Source: an uncultured Pseudomonadales bacterium (GTDB taxonomy: Bacteria > Pseudomonadota > Gammaproteobacteria > Pseudomonadales > UBA7434). Taken from it: 64,000 nt of DNA. Both the position numbers and the translations under genes were made by a program. Where the stretch lies: the NCBI GenBank assembly GCA_943788835.1, contig CALSRU010000010.1:124001-188000 (forward strand), written 5' to 3'. Numbering within the stretch: the first letter of the stretch is position 1; each line of letters begins with the position of its first letter. Below are positions 27,640 to 32,124 of this stretch, in pieces. The notes beneath the pieces were generated by a model. That model searched no databases and was not told the origin of the DNA. It was given only the letters and a program-made list of their open reading frames with translations.

Positions 27640-27870
27640 ATGAAACTTGTAAAATCTACTGCCGAGTACAGCATTTATCAAAAGCGTAACAACCGTTACG
27701 GTGTAAAAAGCGCCGCCCGTAAATGGATCAATGGCGAAGCCAAAGTTGCCATTTTATTGGCTGAAGACTTAGTAAAAGCGCCGGCAACCAAAGCTCCAGA
27801 ACCTGAAGCAGCTGCTGAAGAAGCGCCAGCCGAAGAAACGCCAGCAGCCGATGCTAGCGAAGAAAGCTAA
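27640..27870 (+). CDS. Small conserved-looking protein with an acidic Ala/Glu/Pro tail
   Basis: The 76-residue protein has a basic N-terminal half (STAEYSIYQKRNNRYGVKSAARKWINGEAK) and, from residue 46, a low-complexity tail rich in Pro, Ala and Glu. AGAAAGGTAGC before the ATG is a good ribosome site, and a clear terminator follows at 27888, so it is very likely expressed. I do not recognise the family. It is cytosolic. The split into a basic head and an acidic flexible tail could suit nucleic acid or ribosome contact (inference). Confidence 0.7.
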   Translation: MKLVKSTAEYSIYQKRNNRYGVKSAARKWINGEAKVAILLAEDLVKAPATKAPEPEAAAEEAPAEETPAADASEES

Positions 27871-27887
27871 GCAAAGCCCTTATAAGT

Positions 27888-27915
27888 AGCCGAAGCTTTA
27901 GCTTCGGCTGTTTTA
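27888..27915 (+). terminator. Rho-independent terminator
   Basis: AGCCGAAGC (27888-27896), loop TTTA, GCTTCGGCT (27901-27909), then GTTTTA. It closes the suhB / small-protein unit. Confidence 0.85.
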
Positions 27916-27931
27916 ATGTTAACTATTGAGA

Positions 27932-28378
27932 ATGAATCCAATGAGCATATTTAATCGACTGCTTATTTGTTGCGTGGTTGCTATACCTGCCTCGGCTATT
28001 TATTTTGGCTATACATCAGAACCATCAACATTTTTTCAGTTTGACACCACTGCTGCGCTGAGCTTTTTAATCGTGGCTATAGCCTGTGTTTTCCTTACCG
28101 GCATTAAAATGAATACCGGCGGCAGCAAGTCAGCCAAACCCGCCAAACAAGTCAAGAAAAAAGCCGTGAAAGGCGGCCGTCAACAGGGCGAAGTAAAATG
28201 GTTTAACGGCGGCAAAGGCTTCGGTTTTATTAATTGCGATAACGGTGATGAAATTTTTGTGCACTTTCGGTCTGTGCGCAAAGACAGCCCGCGCCTATCT
28301 CCAGGTAAGCGCGTTGAGTTTATGATTGTGGCCGGCGCTAAAGGCCAAGAAGCCGACGACGTTGAAGTAATTGATTAG
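27932..28378 (+). CDS. Membrane-anchored cold-shock domain protein
   Basis: The 148-residue protein has two predicted membrane helices (residues about 5-22 and 35-58), a basic linker (KSAKPAKQVKKKAVKGGRQ), then a full cold-shock domain with the RNP1-like KGFGFI and RNP2-like EIFVHF motifs. The CSD would face the cytosol and bind single-stranded RNA or DNA. Most bacterial CSPs are free ~70-residue proteins, so membrane tethering is unusual, though related two-helix CSD proteins occur in marine gammaproteobacteria. Start is between ATG 27932 and ATG 27941; no strong ribosome site decides it. Confidence 0.8.
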   Translation: MNPMSIFNRLLICCVVAIPASAIYFGYTSEPSTFFQFDTTAALSFLIVAIACVFLTGIKMNTGGSKSAKPAKQVKKKAVKGGRQQGEVKWFNGGKGFGFINCDNGDEIFVHFRSVRKDSPRLSPGKRVEFMIVAGAKGQEADDVEVID

Positions 28379-28457: not shown

Positions 28458-28820
28458 ATGCAAAATAAAAACCGAGTTTACAGTACCGAAACAGGCAAAA
28501 TTTGCCCCGCCTGCGACAGCCCCCTCGCAAATTGCCAGTGTGCGCAGCGAACTGCTGGAGCATTGGCCAATAGCACCGGTGATGGCGTTGTGCGCATTAT
28601 GCGCGAAACCAAAGGCAGAAAAGGTGCCGGCGTGACCGTTGTACGGGGATTAATAGTTGAGCAAGCTGAACTCAAGGCTATTGCCAAAAAGCTTAAACAG
28701 CTGTGCTCATGTGGCGGAGCTATTAAAGATGGCACTATTGAGATTCAAGGCGACCATCGCGAAAAAATTAAAGCTCATTTAATTGCCGCTGGTCATACGG
28801 TGAAAATTGCCGGCGGGTAA
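28458..28820 (+). CDS. yciH: YciH, SUI1/eIF1-like translation factor
   Basis: The 120-residue protein has an N-terminal Cys cluster (CPACDSPLANCQC), a linker, and a SUI1 domain with KGAGVTVVRGL, LKKLC-like LKQLCSCGGAIKDG and IEIQGDHREKI. Bacterial YciH resembles eukaryotic eIF1 and affects start-site fidelity in vitro. Length is close to E. coli YciH (108). No strong ribosome site is seen; translation may depend on the upstream unit. Confidence 0.93.
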   Translation: MQNKNRVYSTETGKICPACDSPLANCQCAQRTAGALANSTGDGVVRIMRETKGRKGAGVTVVRGLIVEQAELKAIAKKLKQLCSCGGAIKDGTIEIQGDHREKIKAHLIAAGHTVKIAGG

Positions 28821-29172: not shown

Positions 29173-30387
29173 ATGACAAAAAGAATCCTTTTAGCGGCTA
29201 TCACCGCCTCATCGGCCCTCACCTCAGGCTTAACTTGGGCTGATGAAAACGCCAACGCAGCAAGCAACGTGTCAAACAACGTGTCAAACAACGTGTCAAA
29301 CAACATAGTAACCAGCGCACTGGCCAACGGTACAATCAATGGCGAAGTGTATGTTGGTTTTTTCGATAAAGGCTACGACCTAGACAACAGCAGCGCAGCC
29401 AATGGGTATAGCGTGTCAGATATCGAGTTAGATGAACTACGCTTAGGCTTTAACACCCGCATCAGTGACAGCACTGAACTGGGTATTGAAATAGAGCTGG
29501 AGTCAGACGACGTCATTTATGACCTTTTTGTTGCTAAATCGATCAACGACACCACCACCATCACCGCCGGTCGCTTTAAGCAAATAGCCAGCCGCGATGC
29601 CGCGATTGAGCGCAGCGACAACCCGCTAACCACCTCTGTGAGCCTGCTAGACATTGCCGCAGAAGCCAACGACACCACGGTTAACGGATACGCCCTGGAT
29701 GATTTAGCACTTCTTACAGCGGGCTTTGCGCGCCGCGTTGACGGGGTTGAGTTAAAAACCGCGAGCGAGTCGGGGCTAAATGGAACGTTCAGCCTCTACA
29801 AAGGCGGCAACGATTCAACCGATGGCGATTTTAAGCGTAATTTCGGCTTAGCCGGCAGCACTGGCTGGCAAGCTATTGGTGATGAGCGCCAATACGGCTT
29901 CACCGCAGCGTGGTTTTTACAAGATGGCGACCAAAGTGACGCCAGCAACTCAGCAGACAGCCACGGCTACAGTTTCACGGCTAACTTAGCCACCGAATTC
30001 TTTGCTGGCTCCATTACATATTCAGGCAGCGAAGTCGACGTTGAGCAGCTAGGTGTGACTACCACTAACGATGTTGATGGCATTGCCATTGCCGGCGTTA
30101 TCAACCTCTATGACGCGCAGCGCTCATTCGACCAGTACGGCATTTTGCAGCGCCCAACAGCCCTTGAAGACGAGCTCAGCTGCGAAGCAGGCTTTAATGT
30201 CAGCACTACCAGCATCGACGACGGCACTAATACTATTGACGTGAATACCATTGGCGTAGCGTTTAATGCTTACTACGGCGCCTACACAAAACTGTATATC
30301 ACATGGTCGGAAGAAGAATGGGAATTTGATGGCGGCAAAAACTATGTGGTTGATCAACTGGCTATCGGCGCTCGACTGGACTTTTAA
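29173..30387 (+). CDS. Porin-like outer-membrane protein, tandem paralogue 1
   Basis: The 404-residue protein has a signal peptide (cut after LTWA), a short Asn/Ser repeat linker (VSNN three times), then ALANGTINGEVYVGFFDKGYD and alternating strands to a C-terminal GARLDF with terminal Phe, the usual OMP targeting end. It shares this layout with the next gene (ALANGTVSGEVYGAY, TTVTVGRFKQTADR-like segment, TKLYITWSEEEW). Both are probably 16-stranded porins; the substrate is unknown. It has its own strong terminator, so the two copies are separate units. Confidence 0.8.
   Translation: MTKRILLAAITASSALTSGLTWADENANAASNVSNNVSNNVSNNIVTSALANGTINGEVYVGFFDKGYDLDNSSAANGYSVSDIELDELRLGFNTRISDSTELGIEIELESDDVIYDLFVAKSINDTTTITAGRFKQIASRDAAIERSDNPLTTSVSLLDIAAEANDTTVNGYALDDLALLTAGFARRVDGVELKTASESGLNGTFSLYKGGNDSTDGDFKRNFGLAGSTGWQAIGDERQYGFTAAWFLQDGDQSDASNSADSHGYSFTANLATEFFAGSITYSGSEVDVEQLGVTTTNDVDGIAIAGVINLYDAQRSFDQYGILQRPTALEDELSCEAGFNVSTTSIDDGTNTIDVNTIGVAFNAYYGAYTKLYITWSEEEWEFDGGKNYVVDQLAIGARLDF
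29269..29304 (+). repeat. Three in-frame 12-bp tandem repeats in the porin gene
   Basis: GTGTCAAACAAC occurs three times back to back and encodes VSNN each time, just after the signal peptide. Slippage would change length by four residues without breaking the frame. Confidence 0.95.
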
Positions 30388-31002: not shown

Positions 31003-32124
31003 ATGAAAACTAAGATTCTAACAGCAGCAATAGCATCGGTAATGGCAAGCAGTGCAGCCATGGCAGGAGGCCATAGCAACGCAGTCAGCAGCGCACTGGC
31101 TAACGGCACCGTGAGTGGTGAAGTTTATGGTGCGTACCGACAAGACGGCATTGACGGCGGCGCTGACTCTTCAGACATCGACTTAGACATTTTGCGTTTA
31201 GGCTACAGCACTAGCGTTAACGACAGCACCGAACTGGGCATTGAAGTTGAGTGGATGCTTGACGAGAATGGCAACACTGCGACAGAAATCCGCGATCTTT
31301 TCGTCGCTAAATCAGTTAGCGATAACACGACCGTTACTGTAGGTCGCTTCAAGCAAACCGCTGACCGCAATGCAGCGGTTGAGCAAAGCGATGCACTTTT
31401 CACCAGCTCGGTCAGTGGCCCCGCTCTTCTAGGTGCTCTGGGCAACGGTTTAAGCGCAGACGTAGCCAACCTTGAGCGCCGGATTGATGGTGTTGAAGTA
31501 ACATCTGCTAATGCTTCGGGCCTGAACGGCACAGTAAGCATTTATAAAGGTGGCAACGACACTTCTGGTGGCGATTCAGATCGACAGTTAAGCTATGCAG
31601 GTAGCTTAGGTTGGCAGGGCGGATCAGACGATCTAAGCTTTGGCGCTACCGTAGCCTTGTTTAAAGAAGATGGCGGCGACACTGGACAAGAAGCTGATGG
31701 TTATAGCCTTATTGTCAATGGCGCCATGGGCCCCGTTGTAGCCTCTTTAACTTACGCCGATCGCACGCAAGAAACGAACGGCGCAGCCGACGTTGACTAC
31801 GATAGCATTGGTGTTGCCGGCGCATTCAACCTAGGTGGCGCTTCACGCTCTTTTGATAACTACGGCGTATTGCAAGGCCCAAGCGTAGCTAGCGGCGACA
31901 TGGCTTATGAAATTGGCTTTAACTACAACAGCGCATCGGTAGAAGGCAGCACTTTTGCTCTCGGCTCTGATTACGATGCCGACGCTATGGGTATTGTATT
32001 GAACGCCTATTGCGGCCCTAACACGAAAGTGTACTTGTCTTACACTGATGAAGAATGGGATTTCGGTGCAGGCACTACCGCTGAGTTTGACCAAATCGCC
32101 TTGGGCGCACGCTTAGACTTCTAA
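31003..32124 (+). CDS. Porin-like outer-membrane protein, tandem paralogue 2
   Basis: The 373-residue protein has a clean signal peptide (cut after AAMA), then HSNAVSSALANGTVSGEVYGAYRQDG, a strand-rich body, LERRIDGVEVTSANASGLNGTVSIYKGGND and a C-terminal GARLDF. The order of motifs is the same as in the gene upstream, so they arose by duplication. Expected in the outer membrane as a diffusion pore; ligand unknown. A single Cys (AYCGPNT) replaces Tyr of the paralogue. It has a strong ribosome site and its own terminator. Confidence 0.82.
   Translation: MKTKILTAAIASVMASSAAMAGGHSNAVSSALANGTVSGEVYGAYRQDGIDGGADSSDIDLDILRLGYSTSVNDSTELGIEVEWMLDENGNTATEIRDLFVAKSVSDNTTVTVGRFKQTADRNAAVEQSDALFTSSVSGPALLGALGNGLSADVANLERRIDGVEVTSANASGLNGTVSIYKGGNDTSGGDSDRQLSYAGSLGWQGGSDDLSFGATVALFKEDGGDTGQEADGYSLIVNGAMGPVVASLTYADRTQETNGAADVDYDSIGVAGAFNLGGASRSFDNYGVLQGPSVASGDMAYEIGFNYNSASVEGSTFALGSDYDADAMGIVLNAYCGPNTKVYLSYTDEEWDFGAGTTAEFDQIALGARLDF

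Follow-up and report, generated by a model that had tools for sequence, protein, structure and literature searches.

A cold-shock-domain protein with a predicted membrane anchor, conserved among Pseudomonadales genomes

The window, by which we mean the whole stretch of 64,000 nucleotides that was analysed, belongs to a genome of 2.76 Mb in 17 contigs that carries four genes with a cold-shock domain (CSD). One of these lies in the window and encodes a protein in which the CSD is preceded by two predicted membrane helices and a linker (Table 1). The longest reading frame of this gene starts slightly upstream of the assigned start codon, at TTG 27926. No hydropathy peaks were present in the other three CSD ORFs of the genome (69, 68 and 110 aa).

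Table 1. Features of the anchored-CSD locus, in window coordinates
Feature	Position	Strand	Basis
Terminator-like hairpin upstream of the gene	27884..27913	+	13-pair stem, 3′ T-run, ViennaRNA -16.6 kcal/mol
Gene for the predicted membrane-anchored CSD protein, 148 aa	27932..28378	+	ATG 27932, stop ends 28378
Predicted transmembrane helix 1, residues 3-28	27938..28015	+	Hydropathy and AlphaFold2 model
Predicted transmembrane helix 2, residues 39-59	28046..28108	+	Hydropathy and AlphaFold2 model
Linker, residues 60-82, basic in the window protein, non-basic in many relatives	28109..28177	+	Charge counts, dN/dS
Cold-shock domain, residues 85-146	28184..28369	+	PF00313, modelled five-strand barrel, CspA 1mjc match
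Presumed RNP1, KGFGFI, residues 95-100	28214..28231	+	Translation; matching positions kept in relatives
Presumed RNP2, IFVHF, residues 108-112	28253..28267	+	Translation; matching positions kept in relatives
Gene for YciH/SUI1 translation factor, next downstream	28458..28820	+	Pfam/NCBIfam

We examined 42 gene neighbourhoods of anchored CSDs, in 38 of which the CSD gene itself was retained by gene picking, and found no universal operon partner. The gene slyX adjoined the anchored-CSD gene in 15 of the 42, divergently in eight and convergently in seven, and according to the annotation of the record it also does so in L094; in the window's own genome slyX is located on a different contig. A yciH/SUI1 gene lay within six genes in 7/42 neighbourhoods, always on the same strand, and these included all four of the genus loci that were read. 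As no neighbour is universal, the gene context leaves the function undefined. The 3′ end of the terminator-like hairpin falls 18 nt short of the start codon, and a similar hairpin was found in genome G007. The hairpin was missing from the + strand matches of the scan that also covered sigma-70-like promoters; that scan reported three such promoters where 3.3 were expected by chance, all on the opposite strand, and they were discarded. A structured RNA near the gene was likewise rejected, since the Rfam search of the whole window returned a single tRNA and nothing at the locus. Cold-shock proteins are known to act in antitermination. An antiterminator role of these proteins is also mentioned in a passage of an E. 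coli study (PMC5571963), and self-regulation of the anchored-CSD gene through the hairpin is possible.

The Pfam cold-shock model matched the window protein with 71.4 bits against a cut-off of 27 (E 5.6e-20), and no other Pfam domain was found in it, while all 11 NCBIfam cold-shock models that hit it stayed below their cut-offs. The translation contains the motifs KGFGFI and IFVHF, which we take to be RNP1 and RNP2, in agreement with an earlier note on this DNA that had described the RNP motifs as complete. That note had also listed two helices, and both were recovered: the 19-residue hydropathy profile has maxima of 1.93 and 2.42, both N-terminal of the CSD, and the AlphaFold2 model, built with 39 aligned relatives (mean pLDDT 82.2), has a helix at each of the two predicted segments. 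The modelled strands (78-92, 97-102, 107-111, 127-134 and 139-146) form a five-strand barrel, whose pLDDT exceeds 90, compared with about 74-81 for the helices, which is moderate, and a low 52-69 for the linker. The top PDB match of the model was E. coli CspA (1mjc), with a Foldseek E-value of 2.8e-8 and an rmsd of 1.3.

We counted hydropathy peaks before the CSD in 122 distinct CSD ORFs. Two peaks were found in 63 ORFs, four in 17, three in four, one in three and none in 35; these proportions are not population frequencies, as the search profile was built from anchored proteins, and the counts rest on a single hydropathy threshold. By this count, the number of helices is even in 80 of the 84 members. 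In the 63 two-helix proteins the loop between the helices carries on average 0.38 K+R per 14.6 residues, compared with 1.40 per 8.5 residues in the N-terminal tail and 4.40 per 28.5 residues in the linker. Tail and linker together have more K/R than the loop in 61 of the 63 and fewer in none, which is partly an effect of length. The 17 four-helix proteins show a corresponding pattern, with means of 0.35 in loop 1 and 0.12 in loop 3 and 1.65 in loop 2. In both forms the charges follow the positive-inside pattern, which argues that the CSD is cytoplasmic. The basic linker, to which the earlier note had drawn attention, held for the window protein itself (9 K/R and no D/E over 27 residues) and failed for the family, where the net charge of the linker is positive in 43 of 84 members, zero in seven and negative in 34. 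The basic linker therefore deserves no weight as a functional element and was the weak point of the first interpretation.

The anchored architecture is conserved well beyond the window. Nine of the 12 genus genomes, among them the one that contains the window, have a match over almost the whole protein; the three genomes in which it was missing were G001 and G011 (both 70% complete) and G009 (94% complete). Some CSD match was present in all 38 relatives, and near-full-length matches extended to more distant members of the order. Of the 244 genomes surveyed in the order, at least 134 combined a match that extends into the helix region with an open frame of at least 130 aa, a lower bound in which a query start at or before residue 53 plus the long frame served as a proxy for the N-terminus and in which G004, G232 and G106 were counted although a stop falls inside their matches. 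The positive genomes represent at least 25 of 41 family-level groups, and at E 1e-15 four genomes had no CSD match among the matches listed. In a survey of the class (232 genomes, four of them from the same order), helix-reaching matches with such frames were found in at least nine of the 228 others (among the matches listed: G362, G445, G451, G428, G383, G470, G371, G293 and G258); eight of them satisfied the two-peak hydropathy count, and the ninth, missed by the motif, has two hydrophobic stretches by eye. Across 299 genomes of the phylum, helix-reaching matches with long frames occurred, among the matches listed, in the same order only, at a threshold (E 1e-32) so strict that weaker members could escape it. 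The nearest named record in a search with the window protein (one locus) was a protein 94% identical from an uncultured Pseudomonadales bacterium; named relatives were drawn from this search and from plasmid records. The recurrence of the helix-reaching match in nine genus genomes out of 12, and in at least 134 of the 244 surveyed in the order, rules out a chance fusion.

Substitution rates were compared in four pairs of genomes. For the helix region dN/dS was 0.047 (G000-G007), 0.170, 0.087 and 0.128, and for the CSD 0 (G000-G007), 0.025, 0.067 and 0.009. The low values in all four pairs indicate that both parts are under constraint. For the linker the corresponding values were 0.65 (G000-G007), 0.237, not computable and 0, such that the linker is clearly loose in the G000-G007 pair only. 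Between families the helix residues are poorly kept, and neither of two alignments (A1 and A2) contained an invariant column before residue 86. Hydropathy, the structural model, the charge distribution, the selective constraint on the helices and the conservation across many genera all back the membrane-tethered CSD that the earlier note had proposed. We infer that the protein is inserted in the membrane, which is well supported by prediction, and its placement at the inner membrane is probably correct.

We then compared the face of the CSD that would contact RNA, using E. coli CspA positions that face nucleic acid in the CspA and CspB structures. Among 74 anchored members, to which L019 was added by hand, the residues at W11, F12, F20, F31 and H33 are identical in all, and the positions of F18 and F34 hold either F or Y throughout. 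The position of Tyr42 is different: it is aromatic in a single anchored member and H, R or K in 67 (the non-aromatic residues being 36 H, 25 R, 6 K, 3 P, 2 A and 1 Q), whereas 31 of the 37 soluble ORFs, including the three of the window's own genome, have F or Y there. In the window protein this position is Pro, while seven of the eight RNA-facing positions are kept. The domain thus looks binding-competent and changed at one stacking position, and since 73/74 members have lost one aromatic of the RNA face, binding may be weakened or otherwise altered. Given the retention of the nucleic-acid face, the most likely reading of the sequence is that the protein holds RNA at the inner membrane, with the RNA binding itself inferred from these conserved positions.

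Two known kinds of protein resemble the window protein. The CspA/CspE-type proteins share its domain, its fold and the retained RNA-facing positions, but they are soluble, about 70 aa long and free of helices, whereas the window protein has twice that length and two predicted membrane helices. The CSD-DUF1294 proteins (L161) also join a CSD-like domain to hydrophobic segments, but in the reverse order, with the CSD-like region at the N-terminus followed by the hydrophobic segments and DUF1294; no match to DUF1294 (PF06961) was found by Pfam in the window protein or across the 12 genomes of the genus, its own included. We found no description of a membrane-anchored or transmembrane cold-shock protein in a literature search that covered few subscription journals. 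The anchored-CSD architecture is real and conserved, and it is apparently an undescribed variant among cold-shock-domain proteins.

A relative that has been studied is a Pseudomonas aeruginosa protein of 204 aa (WP_003106665.1) with four hydropathy peaks and a CSD, annotated only as 'cold-shock protein'. The gene order in a P. aeruginosa record that carries a plasmid annotation is aspS-dps-CSD-slyX, and a passage of PMC2771283 lists PA0963 as aspS, PA0962 as a DNA-binding stress protein, PA0961 as a cold-shock protein and PA0960 as hypothetical. The matching gene order identifies the 204-aa protein as PA0961. Like the window protein, PA0961 has hydrophobic helices and, after a linker, a single CSD at the C-terminus; it is 43% identical to the window protein over window-protein residues 46-144 and falls in its group of the CSD tree, with weak support. 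It differs in length, in having four peaks instead of two and in its neighbours. We propose a PA0961-type group, defined by N-terminal helices, a linker and one C-terminal CSD, an arrangement that the window protein has as well. The helices of PA0961 are not mentioned in the passages on which we draw here from PMC8545117, PMC13086522, PMC9239060, PMC3406104 and PMC2771283. A P. aeruginosa gene that has been studied as a member of a set of five interchangeable cold-shock proteins thus probably encodes a membrane protein.

We suggest, with a probability of roughly 60%, that the protein is an inner-membrane RNA chaperone, a tethered CSD with cytoplasmic ends that captures single-stranded, probably U-rich mRNA at the membrane. 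Both termini would be cytoplasmic and a hairpin of two helices would anchor the one CSD to the inner face of the membrane, while in the Pseudomonas-type form two hairpins would serve as the anchor. The CSD would bind short single-stranded RNA, probably rich in U, and hold it unfolded near the membrane, and tethering would raise the local concentration there of a weak single-strand binder. For the identity of the RNA and the effect on translation or decay we offer a hypothesis by analogy: the likely task would be the capture or chaperoning of mRNAs whose translation or decay takes place at the membrane, those of inner-membrane proteins being the first candidates, and the anchored protein may be a built-in version of the activity of E. 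coli CspE. According to passages of PMC5571963, CspE binds U-rich mRNAs of inner-membrane proteins, its overexpression increased these mRNAs on the membrane and the yield of most tested membrane proteins, and the loss of cspE and cspC made no appreciable difference; the factors that target mRNAs to the membrane are described there as still to be investigated. A conserved CSD that is already anchored would be a concrete candidate for how membrane-protein mRNAs reach the membrane before translation. More tentatively, and in our view doubtfully, the protein might be a membrane-resident receptor whose CSD recognises U-rich helix-coding stretches and passes the mRNAs to membrane ribosomes independently of translation, so that the CspE activity would be built into the membrane throughout the order.

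Reports on PA0961 bear on the chaperone reading in both directions. In its favour, Grad-seq places PA0961, in contrast to CspA, in the middle part of the gradient, and the study suggests stable complexes (passage of PMC8545117). Against it, passages of three other papers report that there is little or no PA0961 RNA at 25 and 37 °C (PMC13086522), that a mutant of each cspA-family gene, PA0961 included, grows normally in LB (PMC9239060), and that a PA0961 transposon mutant has wild-type virulence in worms (PMC3406104). The altered aromatic of the RNA face, the variable gene neighbours and the absence of the gene from three genomes of the genus also count against this reading. The probable membrane status of PA0961 bears on how the mid-gradient sedimentation and the mutants are to be interpreted. 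An aminoglycoside screen, as a passage of PMC2771283 has it, yielded a multi-gene clone spanning PA0960-PA0963.

An unlikely alternative is that the helical hairpin senses membrane order or stress and alters RNA binding by the CSD, conveying for example a cold or envelope signal to translation or transcript termination. Purifying selection on the helix region would fit such a sensor, as would the regulation of RNA structure by cold-shock domains and the terminator-like hairpin just 5′ of the gene, but the protein has no sensor domain, the helix residues diverge between families, and a passage of PMC13086522 indicates that PA0961 is not thermoregulated between 25 and 37 °C. Quite unlikely, too, is that the ligand of the CSD at the membrane is ssDNA instead of RNA, in a process such as replication, segregation or DNA uptake. 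Both ssDNA and RNA are ligands of cold-shock domains, and among the neighbours are ruvC and dps (P. aeruginosa) and, in some loci, a gene that we take to be holC (neighbour cluster 8); yet the neighbours vary by family and translation genes are more frequent among them, namely aspS, yciH and presumably valS (neighbour cluster 4). On the side of ssDNA we also count that the binding assays in a passage of PMC9239060 were done with it.

It is improbable that the protein is dispensable and draws cold-shock activity out of the cytoplasm as a decoy or store, or that it survives as a duplication relic of little impact. Passages of PMC9239060 and PMC3406104 report no change in growth or worm virulence for PA0961 mutants and four loci have soluble copies beside the anchored gene, but the CSD is under strong constraint in all four pairs (dN/dS 0 to 0.067) and the presence of the gene in 134 or more of the 244 genomes surveyed in the order points to a maintained function. 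Finally, that the hydrophobic N-terminus is a cleaved or soluble extension of an ordinary soluble cold-shock protein is hardly credible: the helices are predictions of moderate pLDDT, but the two hydropathy peaks, the recurrence of two helices in 63 and four in 17 distinct ORFs, the charge bias and the purifying selection on the helices speak for an anchor, and a first helix acting as a cleaved signal peptide would mean an exported CSD. We prefer the inner-membrane RNA chaperone.

As for the origin of the gene, a CSD tree of 111 rows and 69 columns separated anchored from soluble domains with weak support (71/95) and with a few soluble rows on the anchored side; this tree is compatible with a single origin of the anchored CSDs and also with more than one. 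The four-helix forms cluster in it, in a group of 12 four-peak rows plus a single three-peak row, 13 in all (support 94/76). A defence or phage origin was rejected, as the PADLOC and PHROGs matches cover the CSD alone. The anchored CSD was also rejected as a plasmid gene: in a first search of plasmid records none covered 80% of the query, and a second search returned one such record, from P. aeruginosa (NZ_CP131792.1). Soluble cold-shock genes directly adjoin the anchored gene in L061, L063, L066 and L071, as if from tandem duplication. Within the window, an ORF of 76 aa (27640-27870) with an Ala/Glu-rich tail lies between suhB and the anchored-CSD gene and has no Pfam, NCBIfam or PHROGs match. 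The ORFs at 29173-30387 and 31003-32124, the first of which has no Pfam match at E 0.01, are arranged in tandem and encode proteins (404 and 373 aa) that resemble each other and have exported-like starts and a porin-like look.
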